DNA of 31,998 bases, taken from a virus. This document shows, one piece after another, positions 2,809 through 24,745 of the stretch (its first letter is position 1; each line of letters opens with the position of its first letter). Below the pieces are notes generated by a model. It saw nothing but the letters and a program-made list of their open reading frames with translations, did not search any database and was not told the origin of the DNA. A program made the position numbers and the translations under genes. Location of the stretch: positions 1 to 31,998 of IMG/VR virus record IMGVR_UViG_3300030085_003864. One strand, written 5' to 3'.

Positions 2809-3219
2809 ATGCCAGATTATATAACAACAAGTAACTCCGATGGTGGAGAAGCAAATATTCAAGCAAGCGGTAATTTACTTATCGGTGGGAATATTACTGC
2901 TTACTATTCCTCTGATATTACACTAAAAGAAAATGTCAGACCAATAGAGAATGCACTTTTTAAAGTAAATCAACTTAATGGTGTAAAGTTTACTTGGAAT
3001 GAAAATGCCGAAAAGGCAGATAGAGAAAAGGGAGAGGATGTCGGTTTAATTGCACAAGATGTTCAAAAGGTATTACCCGAAATAGTACAAATTAGAAAAA
3101 ACGGAACTTTGGCTATTCAATACGAAAAAGTTGTACCATTATTAGTTGAGGCCATTAAAGACCAACAGATAATCATAGAGGATTTACAGCAAAGATTAGA
3201 GTTATTAGAGGATAAATAA
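2809..3219 (+). CDS. Stand-alone peptidase S74 intramolecular chaperone
   Basis: 136 residues, almost entirely an S74 (endosialidase-type) C-terminal chaperone. This domain drives trimerisation of phage fibres and then releases itself by autoproteolysis. The signature is clear: SSDITLKENVRPI at residues 34-46 gives the Ser35/Lys40 dyad used for self-cleavage in this family. GLIAQDVQKVLPEIV follows, then YEKVVPLLVEAIKDQQ, and the C-terminus is a coiled-coil-like helix. Ahead of the cleavage site there are only ~34 residues, ending in a fibre-like strand (NLLIGGNITAYY). The domain is normally the tail of a long fibre; here it is its own gene, with its own ribosome site (AGAGGA). It may assist an adjacent fibre in trans or be the end of a very short fibre. 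It overlaps the next gene by one base (TAATG). Confidence 0.88.
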   Translation: MPDYITTSNSDGGEANIQASGNLLIGGNITAYYSSDITLKENVRPIENALFKVNQLNGVKFTWNENAEKADREKGEDVGLIAQDVQKVLPEIVQIRKNGTLAIQYEKVVPLLVEAIKDQQIIIEDLQQRLELLEDK

Positions 3220-4381: not shown

Positions 4382-5329
4382 ATGAGTAAAAATAAAGTAG
4401 TTAATATAAAGTTACCAAGTGGTGCACTTGGAGATTGTTTGGCATGGATGCCCTATATAGAAGAATATCGTAGAAGAAAACGCGTAAAAGTAAATGCAAT
4501 TGTTTCTCTTTACAAGTTATTTGAAGAAACATACCCAAAAATTAATTTTTTAAAACCTCATTCGAAATTATATAATCATGTAATGTTACATCCAGATTTT
4601 CAATGTGGTGTAGATTTGTCAGCAGGACAAACAAGATCTTTACAAAGGTGTGCAAATGATGCATTGGGTTTAAGAAACTTCAAAGAAATAAAACCTAAAC
4701 TTAAAGTACCAGATGAACCCTCAAGAATAGTTGGAAAATATGTTACAATTTCAACACAGGCAACATCTCAGGCAAAATATTGGAATAACTATACGGGATG
4801 GGATGAAGTTGTGGTTTGGTTAAAAGGTCAAGGTTACAATGTTTTGTGTATAGATAAGTTTAGAAATTTTGGTGATATAGATTTAAATTTTATGAATCCG
4901 ATACCCAAAGGAGTGATAGATAAAACTGGACTTGATAATCAAACGGAACAATCAGGAGTTGGAATTGAAAATTTTGATTTACATGATAGAATGGTAGATA
5001 TAAAATATGCAGATTTTCATATAGGGGGACCATCAGGTTTGTCTTGGTTAAGTTGGGCACTTGGAACTCATGTGGTGATGATATCTGGATTTTCAGAACC
5101 ATACTCGGAATTTCAAACAGGAGTAACAAGAGTTGAACCACCAAGTAAAAATCCATTTGTAAATGATGAACTTTGTACAGGATGTTGGAACAAATATCCG
5201 TTTGTTCAGGACGATTGGTGGTGGTGTCCTAAACATCGAGGCACAGAAAGACAATTTGAATGTTCACGGGCAATTACATCCGAAATGGTAATTGATAAAA
5301 TAAAGGAATATTTAAAAAGTGTTAGTTGA
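4382..5329 (+). CDS. Autotransporter-type O-heptosyltransferase-like glycosyltransferase
   Basis: 315 residues resembling bacterial autotransporter heptosyltransferases (TibC/Aah type), which add heptose to Ser residues of beta-helical adhesins. A GT-B-like N-terminus (LPSGALGDCLAWMPYIEEY, residues 11-28) and a donor-side motif (ADFHIGGPSGLSWLSWALG, ~210-228) are present. The diagnostic part is the C-terminal iron-finger pattern: Cys265-x2-Cys268-x13-Cys282-x11-Cys294, set in CWNKYPF, WWWCPKHRGTERQFEC and a final helix. In TibC four such cysteines bind iron. The gene follows the Hint-fibre gene by 20 nt without a clear Shine-Dalgarno and overlaps the next glycosyltransferase by 11 nt. The acceptor is unknown; the adjacent Ser/Thr-rich fibre is a reasonable candidate by inference. 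A different sugar donor is possible. Confidence 0.75.
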   Translation: MSKNKVVNIKLPSGALGDCLAWMPYIEEYRRRKRVKVNAIVSLYKLFEETYPKINFLKPHSKLYNHVMLHPDFQCGVDLSAGQTRSLQRCANDALGLRNFKEIKPKLKVPDEPSRIVGKYVTISTQATSQAKYWNNYTGWDEVVVWLKGQGYNVLCIDKFRNFGDIDLNFMNPIPKGVIDKTGLDNQTEQSGVGIENFDLHDRMVDIKYADFHIGGPSGLSWLSWALGTHVVMISGFSEPYSEFQTGVTRVEPPSKNPFVNDELCTGCWNKYPFVQDDWWWCPKHRGTERQFECSRAITSEMVIDKIKEYLKSVS

Positions 5330-6350
5330 TTTGAACAATGAGTATGATGTTTATTATAGTACAGGTGGTGGTTCACTTGTATATGGTGGTAGTGATGTTT
5401 GGGTTAATAATTGGTTACGAGAGGTAGCCCCTAAATTAAATCATCCAAGTAAATTATTAATACATCGCCGTAAACCCGATATGGATAAAAGGGTGAAGTT
5501 TGATTCACCAATCGAAGTGATATGGCAAGGTGACCACCCAAGAGATTTTGAAAAAATAGCAAGTAAGGCCAGAAAAATTCACATTTTACATGGGTATTAC
5601 ACACCACATAAGATAATCGAAGATAATCAAGATAAAATAGATTCCGTATGTTTGCATGTATGTGTACAACTATCCTTAAAGGCTGGTTTTGATTTAGGAT
5701 TACCCAAGTTAATGCACTTTTCAGCAAACAGAGCTTGGGAAAGACGGATAGCACAGATAGCAAACAAGGTGGTTTGGATTGGGTTGGATAAGATTCCGTT
5801 ACACGATACGGTAGATATTATTGATATACCAAATTATTATGAATTCACACAAAATAAAAAGGTATGTATGAGTAATAGAGTAGGTTATGCAGCCAGAATG
5901 GAAACAAGAAAATCACCACATTTCTTAGAAGGTATTGATTCATACGCATTTACCGATTTGGAAGATTGGAAGTGGTGGAAAACAAGAGCTGGATATAAAT
6001 TTGAAAAAACAAGATTGTATCAATTTCAATATAAAAATTTACATAGATTCTTTAATAGAGAGGATTGGGGAATATCTCATAGCTGTCATTTAAACGAACC
6101 ATTCGGTTACTCTATATTTCAAGCATTGGATTATGGAAAGTTACCGATATTACAAAAGGATTGGCTGATAAACTATGAATATCCATTCAGAGCCTTTAAC
6201 AAGAAAGAATTTGATGAGCAAATAAATAATATATCAGAATTATCAGAAAGGGAAAGACAAGATTACTTAGATGGACTGAGGGATTATTGTAGACAATATG
6301 ATAATAAGGATGAATGGATTGAAAGGTATTTAGAGATTTACAACGACTAA
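5319..6350 (+). CDS. GT-B glycosyltransferase (GT4-like)
   Basis: 343 residues. It probably transfers a sugar from a nucleotide donor. The C-terminal half has the GT4-like signature: GYAARMETRKSPHFLEGID (189-207) and EPFGYSIFQALDYGKLPIL (260-278), the position of the usual E-x7-E donor-binding motif. Here the second acidic residue is replaced by Gln268. The N-terminus has a glycine-rich loop (YSTGGGSLVYGGSD, 13-26) typical of GT-B N-domains. The start is GTG at 5319, overlapping the preceding gene by 11 nt and preceded by AAGGA. An in-frame TTG at 5331 is the alternative. This is the last gene before the only large gap in the window. Confidence 0.75.
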   Translation: MLVDLNNEYDVYYSTGGGSLVYGGSDVWVNNWLREVAPKLNHPSKLLIHRRKPDMDKRVKFDSPIEVIWQGDHPRDFEKIASKARKIHILHGYYTPHKIIEDNQDKIDSVCLHVCVQLSLKAGFDLGLPKLMHFSANRAWERRIAQIANKVVWIGLDKIPLHDTVDIIDIPNYYEFTQNKKVCMSNRVGYAARMETRKSPHFLEGIDSYAFTDLEDWKWWKTRAGYKFEKTRLYQFQYKNLHRFFNREDWGISHSCHLNEPFGYSIFQALDYGKLPILQKDWLINYEYPFRAFNKKEFDEQINNISELSERERQDYLDGLRDYCRQYDNKDEWIERYLEIYND

Positions 6351-6487: not shown

Positions 6488-6503
6488 CATGCGTATCTTT
6501 TTT

Positions 6504-6509: not shown

Positions 6510-6515
6510 ATTTTT

Positions 6516-8089: not shown

Positions 8090-8797
8090 ATGTCAATTTT
8101 AAATCGTGGACACATTTATGATTCAATAACAAGAAATAGTGATAAGGGTGCAGTTCCTTATCGTTGGACACATAGTGCAAATGATTTGTACATTGGAAGT
8201 GGTATCTTCTATTATTCTATTCCATATTTTTTAAAGGCAGAAGTTTGTGTTTGTCTTGGAAGTGGTGGGGGATTTGTTCCAAGATTAATGGTTGATTGTG
8301 TACATGAACTAAATGAAACTCATATGTATGATGAAGGAGTTATTGGTGAGGTATATATTGTTGATGCAACCAATGGTGTGAATGGAGAAGTGGATTGGTC
8401 AGATGGAGATAGTTTTTTTAGAGGTAAATTTAATCCTAAGTTTTTAAATTCCACAACAGAAGATGCGTTTTACAATTTTTTTGTAAATAGAGACATTAAG
8501 ATAGATTATTTACACATCGATGCAGGTCATACTTACATAGATTGTAAACAAGATTTTGATTTATATTCTACGATAATGAATCAAAATGGAATTATATCGA
8601 TTCACGATACCGATGAAAACTATTGGAAAAATTTTAAAACATACGAAGATGAGCCACACGATGTGTGTACAGGTCCAAGTGAAGTTGTAGATGAAATGGA
8701 TAATAGTAAATGGGAAATTTTTAATTTGTTTGATTATAAAGAAAAATCATCAAAAACAAGGTCATCGGGTTTGACAATACTTAGGAAATCAAATTGA
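8090..8797 (+). CDS. Class I SAM-dependent methyltransferase-like protein (Methyltransf_24 type)
   Basis: 235 residues. It probably methylates a sugar or another small group on the glycan made by this locus. A motif-I-like glycine loop (VCVCLGSGGGFVPRLM, ~52-67), an acidic strand end (YIVDATNG, 89-96) and the strongly diagnostic block IDYLHIDAGHTYIDCKQDFD (138-157) followed by NGIISIHDTD (166-175) match the Methyltransf_24 family. His147 and the HD pair at 172-173 are the positions that often bind a metal in related sugar O-methyltransferases. The stop overlaps the next gene by 4 nt (TTGA), so the two are likely co-translated. The substrate cannot be read from sequence. Confidence 0.65.
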   Translation: MSILNRGHIYDSITRNSDKGAVPYRWTHSANDLYIGSGIFYYSIPYFLKAEVCVCLGSGGGFVPRLMVDCVHELNETHMYDEGVIGEVYIVDATNGVNGEVDWSDGDSFFRGKFNPKFLNSTTEDAFYNFFVNRDIKIDYLHIDAGHTYIDCKQDFDLYSTIMNQNGIISIHDTDENYWKNFKTYEDEPHDVCTGPSEVVDEMDNSKWEIFNLFDYKEKSSKTRSSGLTILRKSN

Positions 8798-11274
8798 AAT
8801 ATAAGATAACAGGTTTTACAAAAGAAGAAATCGAAGATATTGATGTAAGATATCACGAATGGTCACTTGAAAGAAACATTGAGTGGGTAGAAAAGGAATT
8901 CTATAAAGTCGTTGAGGCTCATCCCAATGGTGATAAGATAAACTTAGAGGTAGATGATTATGATTTTGTAAATAATTATGCAGAAAGAATGTATGTTTTT
9001 GAAAAACTCAAAGATTGTCATATGCATAAATCACCTTATGTAGATGGTAGGATAGGTGAATACGAAATAGAAAGTTTTAATCACGAGATAGGTCAAAGAA
9101 TTACATTAGAAGAAATAGAACAAAATTTTAAAACTGATTTTATTGAAAAGAAAATAAAAGATAAATCCTTTGATTCTTTTCAAGAAGAACTTTTTTACAG
9201 ACAAAAATTAAAAGATTGTGAAATGCACACAACACCTTATGTAGAAAAAAGAATACAAGATTTTCCAATTAGTATACATAACAGATCTAGTACAGATGTT
9301 CAAAGTTTAGATGAAGAACTAACTCATAGAATAAAATTAGAAGAATGTGAAAAAATTAACTCACCTTTTGTTTTAAAAAGAGTAAAACGATATATGGGAA
9401 AAATTCATCCTGATAAAGAATTAACAAAAAGACAAATTATATTTGAGTCTGAAAAACACACTAACAAATATGTTGAAAAAAGATTGACCGAATATTCACC
9501 GAAAGAATATAGAACCGAGAATCATGAAGATTTATACGAAGATTTACAATGGAGGCAGGATTTAGAACAATGTGAAATGCATCAATCAGATTTTATAGAA
9601 CAAAATTTAAAATTCTATAAAAACAGAGGTTTAGAAATATCATCACCATCACAGGAACTTGAGTACAGATTAAAACTTGAAGAATGTGAAAAATTTAATA
9701 GTGAATATATTTCAAGAGAAACTGCGAGATTAAAGGATGAATATTTAATTCGTGATCCAGATGAAGAATTAAAACATAGAATGAATTTATCTTTCTTTGA
9801 AAACAATGTTAAGGATACTGAAAAATTAGCAAACAAAGATACTTTTTGGGATATGATTTCGGTTCATGGATTAGAAAATATGGCTTTATTAAAAGACGAA
9901 TTAAATAAAGTCGGTGATGGTTTTTGTTTGGCAAAATGGAATCAAGTTAGTATTCTTTTACAGACAGGTCAAACTCATAGCTGTCACCATCCGAGACCTC
10001 ATGTTGTTCCAATAAATGAATTGGAATCTAATCCAACAGCACTGCACAATACATATTTTAAAAAACAACAAAGAAAAACTATGTTGAAAGGTGGTCGTCC
10101 AAAAGAATGTGATTATTGTTGGAATGTAGAAGATGCAAATCCTGATGCGTTTAGTGATAGAATTATGAAAAGTGGTGAGGCTTGGGCATTTCCATATTTT
10201 GATAAAATTAAAAAATCGGATCCTGGTGAAAATACTAATCCTTCTTATGTAGAAATATCATTTAGCAATCAATGTAATATGAGTTGTGGATATTGTGATG
10301 TGAAAAGTAGTTCAAATTGGCAACACGAAATAAAAAAACACGGACATTATCCCACAAGTGGAATGTATAATAATACAGAATGGATGGAACGAGACGGAAT
10401 TGTTCCTATACCACATACCAAACCAAATCCATATAGAGATGCCTTTTGGAAATGGTGGCCAGATTTATTTCCAACATTACATACATTTAGAATTACGGGT
10501 GGAGAACCAATTTTATCAAAGGATACATTTAAGGTTTTAAATTACATTATCGATAATCCAAAAATTAATCCAATGTTGGAGATGTCAGTAAATACAAATT
10601 TATGTGCACCACAAGATATGGTTGAGGAGTTTATTGATAAGGTTAAGTATATTACCGATAAGGATTTAGTTTGGAATTTTGCATTGTTCACGAGTATAGA
10701 GTCTTGGGGTAAACATGCAGAATATATGAGAGATGGGATGGATACAGAAAGATTTTGGAATAATTTAGATATGTTTTTGACTAAATGTCAAAGACCAGAG
10801 GCAACAGTAATGGCAACCTATAATTTAACAAGTGTTCCAACTTATGATAAGGTAATCAAACGAGTGTTTGAAATGAAAAAGAAACATTATAATGGAAAAC
10901 GATATAGACATTATGGAATTATTTTAGATACTGCATACCTAAGACATCCTGAATTTTTACAAGTAAGACTTTTATCAACATATTGGATTGACAAAATAAG
11001 ACAAGATGTGAAATTGATGGAAAGTTTATCAGAAGAAAAATATACTCATATTTATGGTCACGGACACGGTGGGTATTATGATTTTGAAAGAGAAAAGTTA
11101 AGACGAGTGTTAGATTGGGTAGATGCACCACTCGAAGATGTAAAATGGTTGATGAAAATGAGGAGAGACTTTATATTATTTATTGATGAGTTTGACAAAA
11201 GAAGAAAGAAAAACTTTTTAAAAACATTTCCTGAAATGGAAGATTTTTATTATTCTTGTAAGAAATTATTATAA
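8794..11274 (+). CDS. Twitch-type radical SAM protein with N-terminal helical repeats
   Basis: 826 residues. The C-terminal half is a radical SAM enzyme: CNMSC-x2-C (Cys494, Cys498, Cys501) binds the 4Fe-4S cluster that cleaves SAM, and TGGEP (568-572) is the SAM-binding GGE. An upstream Cys set (Cys397; Cys439-x2-Cys442 in ECDYCWNVED) and the end RRDFILFIDEFDKRRKKNFL fit the twitch-domain family seen in marine phages. Residues ~65-345 hold about eight degenerate repeats of 31-43 residues, core pattern EEL-x-x-R-x-KLE-x-CE-x-x-x-S-x-Y/F-V-x-KR, highly charged and helical. The start is TTG at 8794 with AGGAA six nt upstream and a 4-nt overlap with the methyltransferase gene. The reaction and target are unknown; peptide or sugar modification is possible. 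Confidence 0.78.
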   Translation: MKYKITGFTKEEIEDIDVRYHEWSLERNIEWVEKEFYKVVEAHPNGDKINLEVDDYDFVNNYAERMYVFEKLKDCHMHKSPYVDGRIGEYEIESFNHEIGQRITLEEIEQNFKTDFIEKKIKDKSFDSFQEELFYRQKLKDCEMHTTPYVEKRIQDFPISIHNRSSTDVQSLDEELTHRIKLEECEKINSPFVLKRVKRYMGKIHPDKELTKRQIIFESEKHTNKYVEKRLTEYSPKEYRTENHEDLYEDLQWRQDLEQCEMHQSDFIEQNLKFYKNRGLEISSPSQELEYRLKLEECEKFNSEYISRETARLKDEYLIRDPDEELKHRMNLSFFENNVKDTEKLANKDTFWDMISVHGLENMALLKDELNKVGDGFCLAKWNQVSILLQTGQTHSCHHPRPHVVPINELESNPTALHNTYFKKQQRKTMLKGGRPKECDYCWNVEDANPDAFSDRIMKSGEAWAFPYFDKIKKSDPGENTNPSYVEISFSNQCNMSCGYCDVKSSSNWQHEIKKHGHYPTSGMYNNTEWMERDGIVPIPHTKPNPYRDAFWKWWPDLFPTLHTFRITGGEPILSKDTFKVLNYIIDNPKINPMLEMSVNTNLCAPQDMVEEFIDKVKYITDKDLVWNFALFTSIESWGKHAEYMRDGMDTERFWNNLDMFLTKCQRPEATVMATYNLTSVPTYDKVIKRVFEMKKKHYNGKRYRHYGIILDTAYLRHPEFLQVRLLSTYWIDKIRQDVKLMESLSEEKYTHIYGHGHGGYYDFEREKLRRVLDWVDAPLEDVKWLMKMRRDFILFIDEFDKRRKKNFLKTFPEMEDFYYSCKKLL
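8986..9828 (+). repeat. Eight coding repeats (~35 codons) in radical SAM gene
   Basis: Units start near protein residues 65, 100, 131, 174, 208, 249, 287 and 324. Each has a ~27-residue core (for example EELFYRQKLKDCEMHTTPYV and EELTHRIKLEECEKINSPFV) plus a variable linker. A Cys sits at the same place in five units (residues 75, 141, 185, 260, 298). The units are diverged at DNA level, so this is an old protein repeat rather than a recent tandem duplication. Confidence 0.75.
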
Positions 11275-11999
11275 TGTTAGGTGTATTGACAAATAGTGGA
11301 AAAGTTAATTATGTTTCATTAGATGATTTTCTTTCCATTGATAAAATGAATTATTTTGAAACATATTTTCAAAAACAATTTCAAAAATTTTGTAATGAAC
11401 TTCCTCGTATTGTAGAAAGAAATGAATGGGCGTATCACCAATACGAAAAAAATAGAAGTAATGATTTTATTTTTAATAATATAATGAGTACTTGGTATGA
11501 CCATAACATATCACGAGAAGATGGGTGGAGACTATTAAAGACATATGTACCTGAATTTATAGATTATCTTTTTGATAATGTTGTAGATTATATGCAGGGG
11601 ATGTTAGTAAGATGTGAACTTCAAGGTGGCCCTATGAAATTTCATAGAGATTGGGGACCCGATACCGATGGTGATTTGGGATTATCTCCAACAGAAAAAG
11701 AGGCAAGAGAATTACAAGAAACTTGGATATGGTTTAGATTTTCAGATACAAAAAAACTTTACATTTCAGAGTTAGATGGTAAGGATGATATTTCTAAAAG
11801 AATACCTGTAAAATCATATGGAGCTATATTTAATGGATTGGATTATCATGGATGTTACGAAGATTCATATGGATTTAGTGTAAGAATTAGTGGTGGATTA
11901 AAAAAGAATATTATATCGGATAAAAACATTGATATTACTACTTGGAAAGATTGGTATCCACCGACAGAATATTGGAAAACAGAGGCATTGACCATATGA
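11274..11999 (+). CDS. 2OG-Fe(II) oxygenase-like protein (hydroxylase-type)
   Basis: 241 residues with the facial-triad layout of 2-oxoglutarate/Fe(II) oxygenases: His124-x-Asp126 in MKFHRDWGPDTDGD, distal His192 in FNGLDYHG, and Arg204 in FSVRISG as the candidate 2-oxoglutarate anchor. Beta-strand blocks (WIWFRFSDTKKLYI; KSYGAIFN) lie between, as in the double-stranded beta-helix fold. It resembles aspartyl-hydroxylase/phage oxygenase families more than the PhyH family. The ATG overlaps the radical SAM stop by one base (TAATG), and the stop overlaps the next start by 4 nt. The substrate is unknown: sugar hydroxylation fits the context, and protein hydroxylation is possible. Confidence 0.65.
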   Translation: MLGVLTNSGKVNYVSLDDFLSIDKMNYFETYFQKQFQKFCNELPRIVERNEWAYHQYEKNRSNDFIFNNIMSTWYDHNISREDGWRLLKTYVPEFIDYLFDNVVDYMQGMLVRCELQGGPMKFHRDWGPDTDGDLGLSPTEKEARELQETWIWFRFSDTKKLYISELDGKDDISKRIPVKSYGAIFNGLDYHGCYEDSYGFSVRISGGLKKNIISDKNIDITTWKDWYPPTEYWKTEALTI

Positions 12000-12844
12000 T
12001 AAATTTAGTTACGGTTTGTGGTCATAATACTAAGATGTTAAGACATATGTTAAACCACTACAAAGATTTTATTGATGAAATTTTTATTGTTGTATATTTA
12101 TCTTCAGAGAAAGATAGAGTTTTATCGGAAGTCAAAGAAATCACTCGTGATTTAAATCTTGATATTCATAAAAAAACAGTTGAAGAACCATTTAATTGGG
12201 AAAGAGTTACAGAGTTATATAATGAAACAAAGTTATTAAAACCTAATGATTGGTGGATTGTGGCAGATGATGATGAATTTCATGTATACCCAAAACCAAT
12301 AAATGAACTCATAGAGGATTGTGAAGAAAATGGTTATAAATTTATTACAGGAGCATTTTTAGACAGAATAGGTGAAGATGGAAGATTCCCAAGCATAGAT
12401 GATGATAGTGATATTTGGAATGAGTTTCCTTTAGCTGGTACATTCAGATATCCAATTTCAAATGCCTGTCCAAATAAAACCGTAGTGATGAAAGGTGATA
12501 TACAAGTTACTAATGGACAGCATTACGCGATGATAGATGGAAAGGATACCTATGGTGCAAGATGGATGAACGATTTGAGATATCCTGTTGGTGATTGTTT
12601 TATTCAAGTAAATCATTTCAAATGGGATGTTTCTGTGATGAGTAGATTAAGAGAAGTTTCTCGTATAAAAAAAAGTTATACTTTTCACGAGGAGTATAAA
12701 AAAATGTTTGATTATATAATAGATAATTTTGGAAGAATTAATATTAACGATGAGAGGTTTATGATAGAAAGGTGTGGTAAAAATTATTACGATTACACCC
12801 AATGGGATAAAGTAAAAGTAGAATCATTAGGTTATAGAACATGA
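11996..12844 (+). CDS. GT-A glycosyltransferase, family 2-like
   Basis: 282 residues. The N-terminal strand MINLVTVCGHNTKMLRHMLNHY and a first Rossmann-like half lead to DWWIVADDDEFHVYP (85-99), the metal-binding DxD(E)F block of the GT2-like (Glyco_tranf_2_4) group. It therefore probably transfers a sugar from a nucleotide-sugar donor using a divalent metal. A later VNHFKWD segment matches the acceptor-side region of the same group. The chosen start, ATG 11996, gives an ATGA overlap with the previous gene. An in-frame start at 11942 would overlap by 58 nt and add an off-family leader, so it is not used. The gene is ATGA-coupled to the next one too. Confidence 0.7.
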   Translation: MINLVTVCGHNTKMLRHMLNHYKDFIDEIFIVVYLSSEKDRVLSEVKEITRDLNLDIHKKTVEEPFNWERVTELYNETKLLKPNDWWIVADDDEFHVYPKPINELIEDCEENGYKFITGAFLDRIGEDGRFPSIDDDSDIWNEFPLAGTFRYPISNACPNKTVVMKGDIQVTNGQHYAMIDGKDTYGARWMNDLRYPVGDCFIQVNHFKWDVSVMSRLREVSRIKKSYTFHEEYKKMFDYIIDNFGRININDERFMIERCGKNYYDYTQWDKVKVESLGYRT

Positions 12845-14322
12845 AAAGATTAGGAATAATATTACCTTATAATGAAAATCATATAGATAATTTCACTCAA
12901 CATTTTATGGCAAATGTTACTGAAAGTAGTGAATTTTATTTTAGACTAATTTTTATGAAACAAAAATCAAACAGGCCTTTAAATAAAGGTAAGTTATTTA
13001 ATATTGGTTATATGTTGAACAAAGATAAGTTTGATTATTTTTGTTTTCACGATTCAGATTTAATTCCAATATCTAATGAATGTAATTACGAAATAGATGA
13101 AAGACCTATTTCATTAGTTGGTATGAGAGATAAGATAGAGTTTGGTGACCAAGAAAATATAGAAAATTTTGATGATTATACATTACCTTATGACGAGTAT
13201 TTTGGTGGAGCAACTATATTTTCTAAAGAAAATTTTGAAATTATTAATGGTTATTCAAACAATTATTGGGGAGTTGGTTATGAAGATTATGATTTACTAT
13301 TAAGATGTGTAGTCAAAGGATTACCTATTAGAAAAGAATTAGAAGTTGAGCCATCAAAAACATTTGGTACTTTTAATGGAATAAATTCTTATTTAAAAAT
13401 AGAGTCTCATACTGCAAAAATTAAAAATGCAACCAACAAAGGGTTTACGATGTCAGCATGGTTTAAATCCGATGGAGAACCACCATACGGTGCAGATGTG
13501 GATAGTAATAGATGTGAGTACTTTATATTTGGTAGACCTGGATATCACATGGGACTTTCATATACACATGGTGGATTTTTAAAGGGTGTGGTTTGGTTAA
13601 GGTCAAAGAATGGAAATGATAGAGATGCATTAGTTGTAAAAGTTCCTGTAAGATGTAATGAATGGCATCATGCATGTTTAGCCTTAGATGATGTAAAAAG
13701 GGAACTCATTTTATATTTAGATGGCAATAAAGTTGCAAGTGAACCTTATGAAAACGATCCTTTACCATATCATAGTAAACCATATTATATTGGAGTTGGA
13801 GATCCTGACATAAGTATGTGGAGAAATTTTTTTGTTGGAAATATTGCAGAAGTTGGTCTGTGGTCAAATACATTGAATGAGGCTGAAGTAAACCAAGTTT
13901 ACAATAGAGGAATAGTAGATGGTAAGGGTGAGTATGTAACAGCAAAATTACCAGTAGGAGTTTGGGATTTCAGAGGTGGATACGATGATAGAACTTTTGA
14001 TATAAGTGGAAGTGGAAATCACGCTAAAATACTCAATGTAAATTTTGCAAATAAATCATCAAAAAGTACCACAGAAAGATATTTACCTTATAGAAGAAAA
14101 GGTGCTTATGGTTATTTATCAGCTCAAAATGAATTTTTAAATCTCGAACAATTATCGAGAAGTGAACATCCTGAAATAACAACTAATCGTAATACATTTA
14201 ATAAAAATGTTCAAAACCAAATGGGCAATATAGACAAGGATGGGTTATCATCAACAAGATTTCGGATAGTCAATAAAAAAGATTATCTTGGAAAACACGA
14301 AATAATAGAAGTAGTAATATAA
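12841..14322 (+). CDS. GT7-like galactosyltransferase with inserted LamG domain, copy 1 (divergent)
   Basis: 493 residues. The GT7 (beta-1,4-galactosyltransferase-type) N-part has ILPY, NRPLNKGKLFNIGY (44-57), CFHDSDLIP with the Asp71-Ser-Asp73 metal motif, YFGGATIFS and NGYSNNYWGVGYEDYD (136-151). A concanavalin A/LamG-type lectin domain follows (about 175-400: FNGINSYLKI, FTMSAWF, NEWHHACLALD, LYLDGNKV, FFVGNIAEVGLW, DISGSGNHAKI). GT7 then resumes with RRKGAYGYLSAQN, DKDGLSSTRFRIV and HEIIEVV, matching the DGLNSL...YT-x-I-x-V end of animal enzymes. The lectin therefore interrupts the GT fold. This copy has Ala428 where the other two copies have the metal-binding His, and WGVGYEDYD rather than WGWG, so activity may be reduced or altered. 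ATGA overlap with the previous gene. Confidence 0.8.
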   Translation: MKRLGIILPYNENHIDNFTQHFMANVTESSEFYFRLIFMKQKSNRPLNKGKLFNIGYMLNKDKFDYFCFHDSDLIPISNECNYEIDERPISLVGMRDKIEFGDQENIENFDDYTLPYDEYFGGATIFSKENFEIINGYSNNYWGVGYEDYDLLLRCVVKGLPIRKELEVEPSKTFGTFNGINSYLKIESHTAKIKNATNKGFTMSAWFKSDGEPPYGADVDSNRCEYFIFGRPGYHMGLSYTHGGFLKGVVWLRSKNGNDRDALVVKVPVRCNEWHHACLALDDVKRELILYLDGNKVASEPYENDPLPYHSKPYYIGVGDPDISMWRNFFVGNIAEVGLWSNTLNEAEVNQVYNRGIVDGKGEYVTAKLPVGVWDFRGGYDDRTFDISGSGNHAKILNVNFANKSSKSTTERYLPYRRKGAYGYLSAQNEFLNLEQLSRSEHPEITTNRNTFNKNVQNQMGNIDKDGLSSTRFRIVNKKDYLGKHEIIEVVI

Positions 14323-14334
14323 GGAGAATAAGTT

Positions 14335-14661
14335 ATGGCTACAACAAAGAAAACAGAACCTACAAAGGATGCAAGAGATACCCTCGATAACGCATCATCT
14401 AATGAGAGTAGTGAACTTAATGCAATAGCAGTTAAGTCATTAACTAATTTAGAAGAAAAAATCGAGTCAATCGATTGGAAACTTTGGGAAATCTACAACA
14501 TCGTAAAGACATATGTAGAATCAAATCCAAGTGGTCCTGCACCTTCCGTTTCACAACCTCAGGCATCTGCTTCAGATATAGCATCTGAAATAGCAAAGGC
14601 ATTAGGTGGTGGTACAACTGAAAAGAAAAAGTCTACCGTATCTAAATTATTTGGAGGGTAA
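14335..14661 (+). CDS. Small hypothetical protein, low complexity
   Basis: 108 residues, not recognised. The N-terminus is charged and Ser/Asn/Asp-rich (residues 1-30). Then comes an amphipathic helix (LNAIAVKSLTNLEEKIESID, ~28-47) that could form a coiled coil, a Pro/Ser/Ala linker (~63-80), and a second helix (SDIASEIAKAL) ending in a basic KKKSTVSKLFGG tail. No signal peptide or membrane segment is seen. A strong ribosome site (AAGGAGA) and tight placement between GT7-LamG copies 1 and 2 argue that it is expressed. The shape suggests a small scaffold or adaptor, but nothing in the sequence proves that. Its last codons contain the ribosome site of the next gene. Confidence 0.6.
   Translation: MATTKKTEPTKDARDTLDNASSNESSELNAIAVKSLTNLEEKIESIDWKLWEIYNIVKTYVESNPSGPAPSVSQPQASASDIASEIAKALGGGTTEKKKSTVSKLFGG
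14653..14658 (+). promoter_or_regulatory. Ribosome binding site for TTG start at 14665
   Basis: GGAGGG lies inside the last two codons of the preceding gene and ends 6 nt before TTG 14665. The protein then begins KPRLAIIVPYRDR, exactly matching its paralogue's KKLAICVPHYNRR, which fixes the start at this TTG. Confidence 0.75.
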
Positions 14662-14664
14662 ACC

Positions 14665-16146
14665 TTGAAACCAAGACTCGCTATAATAGTACCATATCGA
14701 GATAGAGAAGAACACTTATCACAATTTGTTCCACATATAGACAAATTTTTATCCGATAGAGATATTCCGTATAAAATATTTGTTGTGGAACAAGGGAATG
14801 ATAGGCCATTTAATCGTGGTTGGTTGATAAACATTGGTTATTCAATAGCAAAAGAACAAGGATTTGATTATTTTTGTTTTCATGATGTTGATATGTTACC
14901 TGAGGACAATTCATGTGATTATTCTTGGGTAGAAAAACCTACACATCTTTCTGCACGATTGAGTAAATTTAAATACCGTTTAGTATATCCTGAATATATG
15001 GGTGGTGTTACTTTAATTAATAGAGAACACTTCGAATGGATAAATGGATTCTCCAATAAGTATTGGGGTTGGGGATTTGAAGATGATGATTTACTTTATC
15101 GTTGTAGGTTAAGAGGAGTTCCGTTAGAGGAAGCAACTACATTTAAGGCAAAAGATAAAACTCCACTCTATACTAATGTCTTAGAGTTTAATGGACGAGA
15201 TTATCTTGAGGTAAAAAATAGTTTATCGTTAAATAAAACTCTTAATTCGTCATTTAGTGTAGAGGCTTGGGTAGAACCTTACCAAGATTTAAAACTTGAC
15301 CCGAACAAAGAATATGATGAGTTTCATGTTTTTACTCGACCAGGACACCATGTTGGTATAGCCTACACAAGTGGACTACAATACAAAGGTGGAATATGGA
15401 CACAAGATGGGCATCAACCTATGGTAGTTTCAGAAAGACGCTCTGCAGAATGGGTTCATGTAATTTATACCGTAGATACGGTTCTTAAAAGATTAAGAAT
15501 GTATGTAAATGGTGTAGAAACAAATGAATCTCCAACTGATTACTTAGGAAAACTTAGAGAGTCTAATAATGTTTCTTATTATATAGGATGTGCTAATCCT
15601 ATGGCAAGATTTGATGACAGAGGTTATTTTATAGGAGATATAGCTCAAGTTGCATTATGGTCAACTTGTTTAGATTCAAATGAAGTTGAACATCTGTACA
15701 ATGATGGTAGACCATACAATGTTACCGAAAATCAAAAGTTCGATGGTTGGAAGTCTGGTAAAGAAACTTATAAATCAGCAGAAAAAGTTGTTGGTTATTG
15801 GGATTTTGAAAATGTAGTTGGTGATATGGCACTTGATAAGAGTGGTAATGATAATCACGCAAAAATATATGGTGCAATCAAAAAAGAAAAAGAGTTACGG
15901 ATAGGTAGTACTGCATTAGTACCATCGAGACGAGATGGTAAGTTTACTTGTTTAGAACATTCAGAAAATGGATGGGGACAAACTAAATTTACTCATTGGG
16001 AAACACGAGAAAATCAATTAAGATTTTTTAATCGAGTAAGGAGTGGTTTAACGGATATTAAAGATGATGGTTTGAGTACATTAGAATTTAAAATTACGAA
16101 CCGAGAAGAATTTTTAAATAAACACGAATTTATTTCAGTCGAATAA
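14665..16146 (+). CDS. GT7-like galactosyltransferase with inserted LamG domain, copy 2
   Basis: 493 residues and the most canonical of the three copies. GT7 N-part: AIIVPYRDREEHL, NDRPFNRGWLINIGYSIA (45-62), CFHDVDMLPED with Asp74-Val-Asp76, YMGGVTLINREHF, and NGFSNKYWGWGFEDDDLLYR (127-146). The LamG-type insertion spans about 170-405 (LEFNGRDYLEV, FSVEAWVEP, AEWVHVIYTVD, MYVNGV, YFIGDIAQVALW, DKSGNDNHAKIYG). GT7 resumes at SRRDGKFTCLEH, where His432 sits at the metal-His position of animal beta-4-GalT, then ENQLRF, DDGLSTLEFKI (467-477) and HEFISVE. Catalysis of hexose transfer to a terminal sugar is inferred from the family; the donor is unknown. Start TTG 14665. The Smr-like gene begins 3 nt after its stop codon. 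Confidence 0.85.
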   Translation: MKPRLAIIVPYRDREEHLSQFVPHIDKFLSDRDIPYKIFVVEQGNDRPFNRGWLINIGYSIAKEQGFDYFCFHDVDMLPEDNSCDYSWVEKPTHLSARLSKFKYRLVYPEYMGGVTLINREHFEWINGFSNKYWGWGFEDDDLLYRCRLRGVPLEEATTFKAKDKTPLYTNVLEFNGRDYLEVKNSLSLNKTLNSSFSVEAWVEPYQDLKLDPNKEYDEFHVFTRPGHHVGIAYTSGLQYKGGIWTQDGHQPMVVSERRSAEWVHVIYTVDTVLKRLRMYVNGVETNESPTDYLGKLRESNNVSYYIGCANPMARFDDRGYFIGDIAQVALWSTCLDSNEVEHLYNDGRPYNVTENQKFDGWKSGKETYKSAEKVVGYWDFENVVGDMALDKSGNDNHAKIYGAIKKEKELRIGSTALVPSRRDGKFTCLEHSENGWGQTKFTHWETRENQLRFFNRVRSGLTDIKDDGLSTLEFKITNREEFLNKHEFISVE

Positions 16147-16148
16147 TT

Positions 16149-16367
16149 ATGATAGAGATAGATTTACATGGACAAAGACATGATTCTGTCAGAGAAAAAT
16201 TAGAAAGTGATATTATATTAGAGTATAATAAAGGTAACTTTCCTATTCGTATCATTACAGGAAATTCTCTTATGATGAAAAAGATAGTCTTTACTGCCGT
16301 TGAAAATCAAAAATTTAAATCCAAAGAAGAACCACATAATAGTGGTGCATTAATAATATATGAGTAA
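16149..16367 (+). CDS. Mini Smr-domain-like protein
   Basis: 72 residues forming little more than a single Smr (MutS2 C-terminal) fold. It has IDLHGQ (residues 4-9, the DLHG motif), a helix with HDSVREKLESDII, the strand IRIITGNS where the family usually has ITGxG, and a last strand after NSGALIIY. Smr domains bind or nick nucleic acids, for example in ribosome rescue or branched DNA processing. Such activity is possible, but the GxG loop is changed to GNS, so it may bind without cutting. It is oddly placed between two glycosyltransferase genes and overlaps the next start by 8 nt. Fold confidence is moderate; function is unknown. Confidence 0.6.
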   Translation: MIEIDLHGQRHDSVREKLESDIILEYNKGNFPIRIITGNSLMMKKIVFTAVENQKFKSKEEPHNSGALIIYE

Positions 16368-17868
16368 AAAATTAGCAATATGCGTTCCACATTACAATAG
16401 AAGGGAACACCTTGAAAAGTTTATTCCACACATGGATGAATTTTTCAAAGATAAAGATATTGAGTATAAAATATTTGTGGCTAACCAAGTCTATCCTGAT
16501 TCGGTTAGTGGGTTCAACAGAGGAACATCTAAAAATGTTGCCTTTGATGTTGCACAAAAAGAAGGTTATGATTACTTTTGTTTCCACGATATAGATATGT
16601 TGCCCGAAGATGACTCGTGTGATTATTCATATCCTGATAAAGTAGAACATTTAGCAGTTCATGTAGCACAATTTGATTATGGACTAAAGTATCAAGAGTA
16701 CTTTGGTGGTGCAATTTTATTTACCAAAGAGCATTACGAACAAATCAATGGATACTCTAATGGTTATTGGAATTGGGGTATGGAAGATGATGATATTTTA
16801 TATCGTGTAAAGAAAAAAGGATTAGCAAACGAAACCTTTATGAATCATAAACTTGATGGAGAAGAAAATTTTATACGACTCGATGGACTTTCTAATTACA
16901 TAAAAATAAATCCATCAGATTCTATAAGAGAACTTACAAGTGGTAATTTTACGATGTCTGTTATGGTAAGGGCCGAAGATAGGTTTGATATTCCTAAGTA
17001 TTTAATTGGTGATGTAGAGAATAGAGAATTTATTCATCAATATATTTTTGGACGACCAAGTTTCCAAATGGGATTAGGTTGGGATAATTCAGATGCATAT
17101 TCATTTGGATTATTTAATCAAAAAAATAATCATTCTTATATGTGGATAAAAAGACCACCAGATGTTTGGACACATTTAATGGTAACGGTAAATGTTGATA
17201 GACGAGAACTTAGATTTTATTTGAATGGTGAGGAATCAGACTCACGATTTGGACATGGTTCAGAATCTCCTTTGGGATTTGAAACACCTTTAAAGAAATA
17301 TGGTGGAAATCCGTTTTATGTGGGAGTTGGTGATCCAAGAAAAGATGAAGGAGCTGGTTATTTTGCAGGTGATATAGCACAAGTATGTTTGTTTGATAGA
17401 GTTTTAAATTCTACGGATATAAAAGAATATTATGAAAATGATTATCCTGAAGTTTTAGACTTTTCACCAAAACTATACTACGATTTTTCTGAAGTTAGAG
17501 ATGATATAGTGTATGATATAAGTGGTCATGGAAATCATGGAATACTAAATGGTGGTTATGTAGAATCAGAGTTGATTGATAAAATACCAAACACTACTTT
17601 ACCATATCGTACAAAACCAGGTAGATTCTTCTCACAGGCACATAAAAGAAATGATATGGTTGGTGGTAAATGGGTTCATCAAAAAGATACAAGTATCAAC
17701 GAGAAAAGATTTGTAGAAGAAGTTCAAGGTGGAATGATTGATATCGATGAAGATGGATTAACAGATTTAAATTATAGTGTTGTAAAAAGAGAAAAGTTAT
17801 TTGGAACAGAACATGAAATTATAGATTTCAGATGTGAACAGAACATACCAAACCATGTAGAATTCTAA
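16360..17868 (+). CDS. GT7-like galactosyltransferase with inserted LamG domain, copy 3
   Basis: 502 residues. GT7 N-part: AICVPHYNRREHL, GFNRGTSKNVAFDVA, CFHDIDMLPED with Asp77-Ile-Asp79, YFGGAILFTKEHY and NGYSNGYWNWGMEDDDILYR (130-149). LamG-type insertion about 168-400 (FIRLDGLSNYIKI, FTMSVMV, DVWTHLMVTVNVD, FYLNGEE, YFAGDIAQVCLF, DISGHGNHGIL). GT7 resumes at RTKPGRFFSQAH with His428 at the metal-His position, then SINEKRF, DEDGLTDLNYSVV and EHEIIDF, which is close to the animal GT7 C-terminus. It differs from copy 2 in a longer N-terminal loop and a 12-residue extra tail. ATG 16360 overlaps the Smr-like gene, and the stop overlaps the next start by one base (TAATG). Confidence 0.83.
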   Translation: MSKKLAICVPHYNRREHLEKFIPHMDEFFKDKDIEYKIFVANQVYPDSVSGFNRGTSKNVAFDVAQKEGYDYFCFHDIDMLPEDDSCDYSYPDKVEHLAVHVAQFDYGLKYQEYFGGAILFTKEHYEQINGYSNGYWNWGMEDDDILYRVKKKGLANETFMNHKLDGEENFIRLDGLSNYIKINPSDSIRELTSGNFTMSVMVRAEDRFDIPKYLIGDVENREFIHQYIFGRPSFQMGLGWDNSDAYSFGLFNQKNNHSYMWIKRPPDVWTHLMVTVNVDRRELRFYLNGEESDSRFGHGSESPLGFETPLKKYGGNPFYVGVGDPRKDEGAGYFAGDIAQVCLFDRVLNSTDIKEYYENDYPEVLDFSPKLYYDFSEVRDDIVYDISGHGNHGILNGGYVESELIDKIPNTTLPYRTKPGRFFSQAHKRNDMVGGKWVHQKDTSINEKRFVEEVQGGMIDIDEDGLTDLNYSVVKREKLFGTEHEIIDFRCEQNIPNHVEF

Positions 17869-19787
17869 TGAAACCAGATAAAAATTTACTCATATCTATG
17901 ACTAAGGGCACAGATACCAAAGAGGAATACACCGCCTATCAATTAGAAAAACAAAAAAATAGTGATGATTTAAAAATTGATTTGACTACATCCATAATGG
18001 ATAGAGAAAATTTTCATGGGGCAAAAAATGTCAAGGACAATTTTAAAGTTTCTAACTATTCAGGTTTAGATTTTGATAAATTAACAAGACAAGACATATT
18101 AGTTACACAAGTTCCAAACTTGAATGAGGCTGGATTTTTTGCAGGATTGGCAACATTAATTTCTTATATAAGAACAAATCGAAAAGACATAAAAATAAAA
18201 GGTATAGATCCTTGTACTGAGTATTTTTTTCAACGAAAATTAGATTTAAAATCACAATTTTTTGCAGACTTCAATACATATTCTGCACAAGGTTCGGTGA
18301 ATCTTGATAAGTATAAAGAATTAGATTCCATAGTAAAATTATTTCAAAAATATATTGATAAATGTAAACCAACATATTTTGGATTTGGTTTGATAGACGG
18401 AAACATTGATGCTTCATTATTTTTTGCAAAAAAAATTAAAAAGTTATATCCTGATTTAAAAATAATGTTAGGTGGGTGTGGTGTATCATTAATGGGTAAG
18501 GGTAAACCCGAATATGGTGGATATTCAATGAGTGTCGCCTCGAATCAATGCTACGATATTACAGAATATGATTACATAGATTATATTATTAATGGTGATG
18601 GTGAAAAAACTTTGATAGAATTATTTGATTCATCAAAATTAAGAAAAGATTTAGAAAAAATTGATGGGTTGGTTTGGAAACATTCAGAAGATTTATCAGA
18701 TACAGAACAACAAATCAAGACTATTCTCGATGATTTAGATAAAATAGATATTACCAAAAAGGAATTTAATTATTCAAAAGATGTTTTAAATAGGGTTTTT
18801 GAAAAAGAACTATCTGAAGATTTAGATATACCTGATGAGTGGACTATGAATCCAAAAAGACAATATACTGATTTAACTTCATTAGCTGCTCCTGACTACA
18901 ATGATTTTTATGAAAATCCATACTATAAAAAGTTTTATAATATAGCAGTACCATTGACATTTTCACGAGGTTGTAATTTTAGATGTACATTTTGTTCAGT
19001 ACCAGTATTTGTTCCGTTATATAAACACAGACCGATAGAACAATGTTTAGATGAAATAGGTTATTGGGTAGATAAAAATTTTGAAGAAGGACTTAAAAAT
19101 GATAAATATTATCGAGTAGGAATGTTGGCACACGATTCTATTTTAAATGGAAATCCTAAATGGTTAGAGGATTTGTGTAAGGGTATTATTAAAAGAGGAT
19201 ATGGTGATAAAATAACTTGGGGTGGTAATCTTAGATTGATGAAACCAATGGCAGATATAAACACAATGAAATTATACAGAGATGCTGGTATTGAGTTTAT
19301 GATAACAGGAGCCGAATCATTTTCTGAACCAGTTCTAAAACATATGAAAAAAAATAAGAACATGAAAATAGTCAGAAAAATATTTGAAAATATAAGAGAG
19401 ATAAATAAGGAAGCTGGAGATAGATATAACGATACTATAAAAGTTCAATTACAATTGATTGTTGGGTATATGAATGAAACTGAAGAAGATTTTCAAAAAA
19501 CACTTGATTTTGTTGAAGAATTTCATGATGTAATTTATGAGATATTAACTTGTTCAGTTTTTTCAGTATGGTTTCCATTAAAAAAACAATGGGAAGATGA
19601 AGGTAGGTATCTTAAATATCATAGTCCTGTTGTGTGGGAAACAGAATATTGTACTACGGAACAGCGAATGGAAAGAATAGACAGAATAGAAAAATTATTT
19701 GATAAGCTAGGTTTAAATTACAACACATATCATAGAGGGTTGATGATGGAACATTACCAAGATTATTTAGATAGTAAAAGGAAATAA
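17868..19787 (+). CDS. Radical SAM protein with cobalamin-binding-like N-terminal domain
   Basis: 639 residues, in the architecture of B12-binding radical SAM enzymes. A Rossmann-like region (~75-250) includes YFGFGLIDGNIDASLFFAKK, PDLKIMLGGCGVS and a YIINGDGEKTLIELF segment, the typical end of that domain. The radical SAM core has SRGCNFRCTFCS with Cys369-x3-Cys373-x2-Cys376, and later MITGAESFSEPVLKHMKK, the usual radical SAM strand-helix. No DxHxxG cobalamin-ligand motif is visible, so bound cobalamin, if any, would lack the lower His ligand. Such enzymes methylate unactivated carbons or rearrange and dehydrate sugars; the reaction here is unknown. An insertion of acidic helices (~255-345) separates the domains. 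Confidence 0.72.
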   Translation: MKPDKNLLISMTKGTDTKEEYTAYQLEKQKNSDDLKIDLTTSIMDRENFHGAKNVKDNFKVSNYSGLDFDKLTRQDILVTQVPNLNEAGFFAGLATLISYIRTNRKDIKIKGIDPCTEYFFQRKLDLKSQFFADFNTYSAQGSVNLDKYKELDSIVKLFQKYIDKCKPTYFGFGLIDGNIDASLFFAKKIKKLYPDLKIMLGGCGVSLMGKGKPEYGGYSMSVASNQCYDITEYDYIDYIINGDGEKTLIELFDSSKLRKDLEKIDGLVWKHSEDLSDTEQQIKTILDDLDKIDITKKEFNYSKDVLNRVFEKELSEDLDIPDEWTMNPKRQYTDLTSLAAPDYNDFYENPYYKKFYNIAVPLTFSRGCNFRCTFCSVPVFVPLYKHRPIEQCLDEIGYWVDKNFEEGLKNDKYYRVGMLAHDSILNGNPKWLEDLCKGIIKRGYGDKITWGGNLRLMKPMADINTMKLYRDAGIEFMITGAESFSEPVLKHMKKNKNMKIVRKIFENIREINKEAGDRYNDTIKVQLQLIVGYMNETEEDFQKTLDFVEEFHDVIYEILTCSVFSVWFPLKKQWEDEGRYLKYHSPVVWETEYCTTEQRMERIDRIEKLFDKLGLNYNTYHRGLMMEHYQDYLDSKRK

Positions 19788-19788
19788 T

Positions 19789-21087: not shown

Positions 21088-21095
21088 TTATAGGT

Positions 21096-23057: not shown

Positions 23058-23766
23058 ACAAATATTAGACTTTTATAATACAAATGGTTTTTATATTGAA
23101 AGGTTATTTTCTCGTCATGAAATCAATAAATACAGAGAAGAATCTGATAGGTTATTAAAACTAAGAGGAGAGGATACTCGTCCTTATGCCTATCCACACG
23201 AAGATTCTGAATTATTTAATGATTTGTGGAAACATCCGAGAACTTTAGAAATATTAAAATTGTTAATTGGTGGTGATGTATGTGGGTTACAGACTTGGAT
23301 GTATTTTAAACCACCAGGTGAACTTGGTAGAGATATCCATCAAAATATATTTTATACTCATGCAAATAGAGGTGATATAATTAATGCATCTTTGGCTATT
23401 GATGATTCAAATGAAGAAAATGGATGTTTATATGCTTACATTGGTTCTCATGTTGAGTGGTGTTTACCAATAGAAAAAGACGATGAAAGAATGAAAACAA
23501 ATCCAAAAGATTGGAGAAATGAAAGAGGTAAACCTTGTGCTATTCCTGGTGAATGGGTAGATGGTGTGTGGACAGAAAAATATGAAAAGAAATATCTTCC
23601 TATGAATAGTGGAGAAATTATATTTTTACATTCTCATGTTCTTCATGGTTCTGATGATAATAATTCAAAGGATAAGTGGAGAAGGGCATTTTTATGTGGA
23701 TATCTAAGAGAAGATGCACACTTCAATTCAGGAGGTCAAATGAAACGAGTTGGGTTATCTTTTTAA
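23047..23766 (+). CDS. Phytanoyl-CoA dioxygenase (PhyH)-like protein with HxN in place of HxD
   Basis: 239 residues, PhyH-type 2OG-Fe(II) oxygenase layout: FYNTNGFYIERLFSRHEI at the N-terminus, PHEDSELFNDLWKHPR, DIHQNIFYTHAN (96-107), LAIDDSNEENGCLYAYIGSH (116-135), and IIFLHSHVLHGSDDN with His200, then Arg213. Related enzymes read HQDxxY where this one reads His98-Gln-Asn100, so the acidic iron ligand appears replaced by Asn. In some relatives loss of that acid accompanies halogenation; here it could also mean weak or lost iron binding. The chosen start ATG 23047 overlaps the radical SAM gene by 11 nt. An in-frame start at 22987 would overlap by 71 nt and adds an unrelated leader. Confidence 0.65.
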   Translation: MKNEQILDFYNTNGFYIERLFSRHEINKYREESDRLLKLRGEDTRPYAYPHEDSELFNDLWKHPRTLEILKLLIGGDVCGLQTWMYFKPPGELGRDIHQNIFYTHANRGDIINASLAIDDSNEENGCLYAYIGSHVEWCLPIEKDDERMKTNPKDWRNERGKPCAIPGEWVDGVWTEKYEKKYLPMNSGEIIFLHSHVLHGSDDNNSKDKWRRAFLCGYLREDAHFNSGGQMKRVGLSF

Positions 23767-23777
23767 AGGGAGATTAA

Positions 23778-24740: not shown

Positions 24741-24745
24741 TTGAT

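Follow-up and report, generated by a model that had tools for sequence, protein, structure and literature searches.

The closest described enzymes are the animal beta-1,4-galactosyltransferases of family GT7, such as B4GALT1 and B4GALT7. In B4GALT1 the N-acetyl pocket is formed by Arg359/Phe360/Ile363 (PMC7565966). Two GT7-type enzymes, B4GALNT3 and B4GALNT4, combine the GT7-type domain with a PA14 domain that putatively binds glycans and is required for activity; without PA14, B4GALNT3 was almost inactive (PMC11254600). Among viruses, mycobacteriophages have glycosylated capsids and tails (Freeman et al. 2023, cited in PMC12619734), and both a putative beta-1,4-galactosyltransferase and lectin proteins of the ConA-like type are packaged in particles of Aureococcus anophagefferens virus (PMC7507832).

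The window analysed here, a stretch of 31,998 nucleotides from IMG/VR, comes from a T4-like phage record of 80.8 kb, and the T4-type terminase, portal and prohead protease (phrog_2, phrog_213 and phrog_207) were found in that record. A T4-like portal was also present in 21 of 30 related contigs.

Three GT7 genes with a LamG domain

According to the earlier note, three proteins encoded in the window share one layout, with a LamG domain standing between a GT7 N-part and a GT7 C-part. The ORF list and the Pfam matches agree with this layout:

12841..14322, + strand: gene A, GT7 enzyme with nested LamG and degenerate catalytic residues (ORF, Pfam, residue table, AF2)
12841..13335, + strand: A, GT7 N-part, residues ~1-165 (Pfam 7N 3-84, 7C 112-163)
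13351..14073, + strand: A, nested LamG, residues ~171-411 (Pfam Laminin_G_3 182-351; AF2 strands)
14089..14319, + strand: A, GT7 C-part, residues ~417-493 (alignment; C-part HMM E = 3e-19)
14665..16146, + strand: gene B, GT7 enzyme with nested LamG and intact catalytic residues (ORF, Pfam, AF2, residue table)
14665..15132, + strand: B, GT7 N-part, residues 1-156 (PDB B4GALT1 E = 3e-36; Foldseek)
15160..15897, + strand: B, nested LamG jelly-roll, residues ~166-411 (Pfam 177-341; Foldseek)
15925..16143, + strand: B, GT7 C-part, residues 421-493 (hhalign against insert-free GT7 C-part 97.9%; conservation)
16360..17868, + strand: gene C, GT7 enzyme with nested LamG and mostly intact catalytic residues (ORF, Pfam, residue table)
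16360..16839, + strand: C, GT7 N-part, residues ~1-160 (Pfam 7N 3-89, 7C 97-160)
16861..17574, + strand: C, nested LamG, residues ~168-405 (Pfam Laminin_G_3 178-355)
17605..17865, + strand: C, GT7 C-part, residues ~416-502 (C-part HMM E = 6e-27)

Glyco_transf_7N, Glyco_transf_7C and Laminin_G_3 were matched in all three proteins far above the Pfam cut-offs, with E-values for A, B and C of 1.7e-16, 7.6e-22 and 2e-21 for Glyco_transf_7C and 3.2e-20, 1.3e-14 and 3.1e-13 for Laminin_G_3. In B, the N-part carries HDVD (73-76) and WGWGFEDDD (134-142) and the C-part the metal His (432), N450-x-x-RF454 and DGL (468-470). No membrane segment was found in A, B or C. The inserted domain belongs to the LamG/ConA-like group by its Laminin_G_3 match and its jelly-roll fold, the LamG of B matching pentraxin and LamG-like structures in Foldseek. 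A weak Pfam match to Toxin_R_bind_N was attributed to the common jelly-roll fold and not to a toxin. Between A and B lies a small gene (14335-14661) that is conserved only among the close relatives of the window.

Position of the LamG domain in the GT7 fold

Nesting of LamG at one site of the GT7 fold, as proposed from the sequence in the earlier note, has strong support from sequence profiles, structure prediction, phylogeny and counts of domain architectures. The LamG jelly-roll (~250 residues) replaces a short turn that leads from the element after the WGxxxED helix to the metal-His strand. In every inserted protein scanned, the Pfam 7C match ended between profile positions 59 and 67 of 78, whereas it reached 77 of 78 in proteins without an insert, which places the break inside the 7C domain; in A, B and C the insert cut the match off at position 62-65 of 78. 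When the last ~75 residues alone were compared with the C-part of insert-free bacterial GT7 proteins using hhalign, they matched the GT7 ending with a probability of 97.9% (E = 3.5e-13). After excision of LamG, the GT core matched the insert-free bacterial GT7 profile at 100% (E = 2e-74), and LamG itself reached only 0.1%; the same insert-free profile gave an end-to-end alignment with human B4GALT1 (1-227, E = 2e-51). Among the proteins retrieved, LamG lay between the GT7 halves in 222 non-identical ones and outside them in none. The spacing of about 235 residues given in the earlier note was somewhat short: in an alignment of 64 proteins the insert measured 221-296 residues, with a mean of 249. 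Relatives without the insert have 5-40 residues at this site.

The AF2 model of B was confident (pLDDT 91.1, pTM 0.87) and showed a C-part consisting of a strand, an RF-bearing helix and two final strands; hhalign, AF2 and the PDB profile together indicated that the GT-A fold ends as in GT7, with a metal-His strand, an acceptor-loop helix and two last strands. The model of A had a pLDDT of 85 and a pTM of 0.68, with values below 50 in the metal loop (residues 429-441). One could argue that LamG and GT7 are merely consecutive and that the C-terminal DGL block forms a third domain or some other fold, given that Foldseek aligned just the first ~154 residues of B to B4GALT1 (154 columns, rmsd 1.5 A, 38% identity) and that the C-part alone was weak in a single-profile search (8 bits). 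However, the Foldseek alignment is sequential and does not bridge a 250-residue gap, so that a stop at this point is expected; the split was examined by comparing profiles with those of insert-free relatives. The profile-to-profile match of the C-part to the GT7 ending, the end-to-end alignment with B4GALT1 of insert-free relatives that have the same C-part, and the strand, helix and two-strand pattern in the model of B make a consecutive arrangement extremely improbable, and a separate fold for the DGL block is ruled out by the match to the GT7 ending.

Catalytic residues and predicted activity

The equivalents of D252, D254, E317, D318 and H347 (B4GALT1 numbering) were all kept in B and C. 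The earlier note had assigned the metal His and N-x-x-RF to all three proteins, which is correct for B and C; in A the metal His (H347 equivalent) is replaced by Ala and the R of N-x-x-RF by Thr. Further changes in A are R191N, R228K, W314V and D319Y. Having lost several catalytic residues, A may be inactive or a partner subunit, and an ortholog of A in a related locus (L004) retains the metal His.

Conservation was counted over 219 inserted proteins. The metal-site and catalytic positions D252 (217), D254 (215), E317 (190), D318 (209) and H347 (200) were kept in most of them, as were R191 (212), N227 (218) and Y289 (200), while R359 was kept in 142 and the F360 equivalent was F or Y in 213. 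From these residues, B and C are predicted to be metal-dependent UDP-hexose transferases. Galactose would be a likelier donor than GalNAc since the Tyr289 equivalent is Tyr, and the presence of R359 and F360 equivalents suggests a GlcNAc-like acceptor. A processive action of the GT7-LamG enzymes, one of two modes suggested earlier, is unsupported.

Distribution and history of the insertion

At least 574 stretches of IMG/VR were confirmed to carry the GT7-LamG design, and no GT7 match was obtained in 50,697 cultured-phage records. The earlier note knew of no described example, and none was found in PHROGs, cultured phages, BFVD or open-access papers; likewise, the open-access literature yielded no relevant paper on a LamG or lectin inside GT7 or any other glycosyltransferase. 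One bacterial contig (n = 1) carried a GT7-LamG gene, which adjoins genes for a GT2, an ABC exporter and an HlyD-like protein and not virion genes.

The tree is compatible with a single ancient LamG insertion. The best tree requires two state changes and the A-type LamGs are scattered, as could be expected if LamG had entered GT7 genes several times independently. Nevertheless, a single clade was not rejected (p-AU 0.49, with a marginally better likelihood), LamG occupies the same place in all 222 proteins, and the B and C groups reappear in both core and LamG trees, so that repeated entry appears improbable. Because these groups recur in both trees, swaps of LamG between paralogues are not needed either.

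A conserved gene cassette

In T4-like aquatic phages, two or three GT7-LamG genes stand in tandem within a conserved cassette. Its other genes encode a methyltransferase, a GT2-like enzyme, a twitch radical-SAM protein and, in the majority of loci, a LamG protein on its own. This cassette has not been described in the literature searched. The associated genes in the window are:

2809..3219, + strand: Peptidase_S74 (endosialidase-type tail-fibre chaperone), upstream of the cassette (Pfam E = 1.4e-18)
5319..6350, + strand: cassette-associated gene of unknown function (homologue in 50/77 loci)
8090..8797, + strand: methyltransferase, Methyltransf_24 (Pfam E = 6e-9; homologue in 66/77 loci)
8794..11274, + strand: twitch-domain radical SAM protein (NF033640 E = 3e-89; homologue in 71/77 loci)
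11942..12844, + strand: GT2-like glycosyltransferase (Glyco_tranf_2_4 E = 2e-5, just under cut-off; homologue in 70/77 loci)

The end of the GT2-like gene overlaps the first 4 bases of gene A. A stand-alone LamG gene was present in 49 of the 77 loci and a LamG-radical SAM fusion in 4, and no locus (0/77) had an insert-free GT7 in the cassette. In the window, no gene other than A, B and C carried the same LamG; the radical SAM protein has a ~375-aa N-terminal extension, which was considered as a LamG and gave no match to the LamG HMM. An S74 homologue was located 2.6-5.3 kb upstream in 18 of the 63 loci with more than 3.5 kb of upstream DNA.

Possible role of the LamG domain

LamG sits 10-20 residues before the metal His, which would place it at the hinge of the acceptor loop. 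We propose that it recognises an acceptor glycan or glycoprotein in cis, and with such recognition each paralogue might add a sugar to a different intermediate. An acceptor-tethered enzyme, the second mode suggested in the earlier note, is plausible by analogy with the GT7-type B4GALNT3/4. Mean pairwise identity was 28% for LamG, as compared with 50% and 33% for the N- and C-parts of the GT, and LamG as the fastest-changing part is as expected if the paralogues bind different acceptors. A sugar site is not readable from LamG because its conserved residues are mostly structural, namely Gly and aromatics.

LamG of the same type is also found on its own and in fusion with the radical SAM protein, which would fit a structural or oligomerisation module, not a lectin, that links the cassette enzymes with each other or with the stand-alone LamG protein. 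LamG/ConA-like folds often bind glycans, however, and fast divergence suits recognition better than a fixed interface, making a purely structural role unlikely. A further reading, less likely than not, is an undescribed phage modification system in which LamG, nested in the GT7s, fused to the N-terminal side of radical SAM in some phages and free in most, acts as a shared address gathering the glycosyltransferases, methyltransferase and radical SAM on one phage or host substrate in an assembly-line decoration of the virion.

Product and acceptor

Taken together, a GT7 with nested LamG, UDP-hexose transfer by B and C, acceptor binding in cis and a virion-glycan product form a joint explanation to which we give about an even chance. 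Its least certain part is the product, putatively a glycan attached to the virion of the phage itself (tail fibre). The S74 tail-fibre gene upstream, the lack of a membrane segment, the conserved cassette and the T4-like portal speak for the joint explanation; the minority of loci with S74 upstream, the degenerate state of A and a LamG without a readable sugar site speak against it, as does the bacterial GT7-LamG gene beside exporter genes, which fits a secreted acceptor.

The record further encodes sugar-nucleotide enzymes (UDP-glucose dehydrogenase-like, GDP-mannose dehydratase-like and a DegT aminotransferase) and other glycosyltransferases, which would also be compatible with modification of a host surface polysaccharide for superinfection exclusion or masking. 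But A, B and C have no membrane segment, no lipid-carrier enzyme was found among the scanned genes, and the cassette is placed after the tail-fibre chaperone gene. In addition, the T4-like portal and terminase, with no integrase seen in the scanned parts of the record, suggest a lytic phage, and a host polysaccharide is consequently a rather unlikely target. The acceptor could alternatively be a ribosomal peptide or small protein modified by radical SAM and glycosyltransferases (a RiPP-like glycopeptide), as the frequent twitch radical SAM gene, the exporter genes on the bacterial contig and the small gene between A and B might suggest. Since that small gene is not kept beyond close relatives and no exporter was seen in the phage cassette, we consider a peptide acceptor quite improbable.

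Comparison with known systems

These findings show that a complete lectin-type domain can be accommodated within the GT7 catalytic fold, beside the acceptor loop's metal-binding hinge. The design is old and fixed, and uncultured T4-like phages commonly carry it. The findings also point to a phage glycosylation cassette that is widespread and undescribed, with GT7-LamG enzymes unmatched among cultured phages.

In mycobacteriophages the likeness lies in the phage glycans, virion glycosylation being a putative role of the present cassette. Aureococcus anophagefferens virus is a giant algal virus in which enzyme and lectins are separate proteins, and fusion is not mentioned in the available part of PMC7507832. 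The lectin domains of GALNT, GnT-IV and the POMGNT1 stem select acceptors in cis (PMC11254600), to which LamG may be likened, but they are terminal or in the stem and belong to other GT families, whereas LamG is nested. In the mammalian B4GALNT3/4 the accessory domain is PA14 in the luminal region, and the available part of the same source does not mention nesting at the LamG site. The animal enzymes B4GALT1 and B4GALT7 have the same catalytic fold and ending as the phage proteins and share FNR, DVD, WGWGxEDDD, the metal His, NxxRF and DGL with them; they are membrane-anchored Golgi enzymes without a lectin insert, in contrast to the phage proteins, which lack a membrane segment. Insert-free bacterial and viral GT7 proteins from the same collections (L055-L061, L095-L101 and others) have the same core and C-part and no LamG, and because such relatives exist, the GT7-LamG enzymes are a natural system for testing how a glycosyltransferase is directed by an accessory domain.

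Results

LamG nested within the GT7 core

The window comprises bases 1-31998 of a virus record of 80,799 bases, which also carries T4-type terminase, portal and prohead protease genes and therefore represents part of a T4-like tailed phage genome. The three open reading frames that the earlier note had claimed at 12841-17868 were real and located as described, and each product matched Glyco_transf_7N, then Glyco_transf_7C, then Laminin_G_3, well above the Pfam cut-offs.

Gene A, 12841-14322, + strand, GT7-LamG protein of 493 aa
Gene B, 14665-16146, + strand, GT7-LamG protein of 493 aa
Gene C, 16360-17868, + strand, GT7-LamG protein of 502 aa

Between A and B lies a gene for a Ser/Ala-rich 108-aa protein (14335-14661), seen only in this phage and its close relatives, and between B and C a small ORF (16147-16360, start MIEIDLHGQRHDSV) with a putative Smr-type domain, assigned by resemblance.

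The earlier proposal that LamG is nested in GT7, not appended to it, is right, and the case is stronger than could be known from the sequence alone. In all scanned proteins with the insert, the Pfam 7C match broke off at position 59-67 of the 78-position profile; in insert-free relatives it extended to position 77. In profile-profile comparisons with insert-free bacterial GT7 enzymes, which themselves align with human B4GALT1 over their entire length, the GT part minus LamG matched over the whole length (100%, E 2e-74), the last ~75 residues alone matched the C-terminal part (97.9% probability, E 3.5e-13) and LamG alone gave 0.1%. The suggested structure prediction yielded a confident AlphaFold2 model of B, based on a 64-protein alignment (pLDDT 91.1, pTM 0.87), in which GT7-type elements resume after LamG with the expected strands and the acceptor-loop helix; the front 154 columns fitted B4GALT1 at 1.5 A. 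Among the non-identical proteins of the 250 loci fetched, the two GT7 halves were separated by either 5-40 residues (n=32) or 200-344 (n=223), with none intermediate; LamG was seen in 222 of the 223, and in no protein from these loci was it N-terminal or C-terminal to the whole GT7.

In both nested and stand-alone LamGs the motif Y-x-F...D-x-SGN-x-N-G is C-terminal to the LamG body (after versus before the body in GT7 proteins, 326 to 0). In a related phage, a virion-type LamG protein (L255:1246-2640, minus strand) has this motif ahead of the body, possibly a circular permutation relative to A, B and C.

Catalytic residues

B4GALT1 numbering was transferred by hand count on a HMMER alignment. 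In B and C the metal and catalytic positions D252, D254, E317, D318 and H347 are conserved, as are Y289, R359 and F360. The metal His, previously ascribed to all three proteins, thus holds for B and C and fails for A, which has Ala at this position (H347->A) together with R191->N, R228->K, W314->V, D319->Y and R359->T, and whose metal loop is poorly defined in the predicted structure. An ortholog of A (L004, 73% identical) keeps the His.

The gene cassette

Across 77 loci, the usual cassette order was an unknown gene, methyltransferase (66/77), GT2-like gene (70/77), two (30/77) or three (45/77) GT7-LamG genes, a twitch radical SAM gene (71/77) and a stand-alone LamG gene (49/77). The last encodes ~245 aa at the cassette end (L194:12274-13011 and about 45 further non-identical copies); none was found in the window or elsewhere in its record. 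The window departs from this order in that the radical SAM gene precedes the GT2-like gene. An S74 tail-fibre chaperone gene lies upstream of its cassette, as in 18 of the 63 loci with enough upstream DNA. LamG was fused N-terminally to a radical SAM protein (family NF033640) in 4/77 loci; these genes adjoin a stand-alone LamG gene, and their LamG clusters with the stand-alone LamGs in the tree.

LamG-radical SAM fusions
L242:3084-5231
L224:8801-10894
L227:8846-10960
L248:8816-10936

Two window proteins with Hint/intein-like C-terminal domains (3219-4361 and 6489-8030) match a virion structural PHROG, and related Hint proteins occur close to the cassette in other loci. The region 17868-31998 and beyond is a long sugar- and radical-chemistry island of the T4-like phage, with B12-binding/radical SAM genes accompanied by PhyH, UDP-glucose dehydrogenase-like, GT92, GDP-mannose dehydratase-like and aminotransferase genes. 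A carbamoyltransferase spans two overlapping frames (31500-31997, continuing to 32988 of the record), its N-domain interrupted between profile positions ~192 and 201 by a frameshift, an assembly error or a programmed shift.

Distribution

Scanning IMG/VR with a single protein identified relatives of full or almost full length at 45 loci, and scanning with a profile identified at least 574 confirmed stretches, some of which may be without the insert; it was present in 77/77 loci kept for analysis. By contrast, tblastn searches of 50,697 cultured phage records found no GT7 match for B, C and a distant relative as queries; BFVD gave no full-length match (best query TM-score 0.40) and PHROGs only partial matches. 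The GT-core tree was compatible with a single insertion (p-AU 0.49 versus the free tree). The lectin-nested architecture is a new version of GT7 that is apparently old and common in uncultured phages.

A few relatives were found in bacterial assemblies, and two of these (L051 and L052) are probably phage contigs since they contain the phage cassette. A third contig looks cellular: at L050:4941-9903 the GT7-LamG gene neighbours GT2, ABC exporter and HlyD-like genes, with an LRR kinase also nearby, an arrangement that could reflect phage-bacterium gene transfer or else a secreted acceptor.

Discussion

A role of LamG in acceptor recognition by these GT7 transferases is plausible. A virion glycan is the favoured acceptor given the T4-like setting, the tail-fibre neighbour and the absence of membrane segments in A, B and C. 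A host polysaccharide is a less likely alternative, and a modified peptide less likely still; the exporter and HlyD-like neighbours in L050 might be compatible with a secreted acceptor of that kind. The Tyr at position 289 would favour UDP-Gal as donor; in B4GALT1 a point mutation here admits GalNAc-type donors (Ramakrishnan and Qasba 2002, as cited in PMC7565966), and the Y289L mutant has been put to use (PMC8229434). LamG is more divergent than the GT part (mean identity 28% versus 50%), and this faster change fits paralogues each working on different intermediates.

The insert ends about ten residues upstream of the metal His, where a lectin-type domain would be positioned to hold or sense the acceptor. 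In B4GALT1 the acceptor site is created by a conformational change on UDP-Gal binding (PMC4202792), and Arg359, Phe360 and Ile363 in this region contact the N-acetyl group of GlcNAc (PMC7565966). Activity of B4GALNT3, a GT7-type enzyme, requires a PA14 domain that is putatively glycan-binding (PMC11254600).
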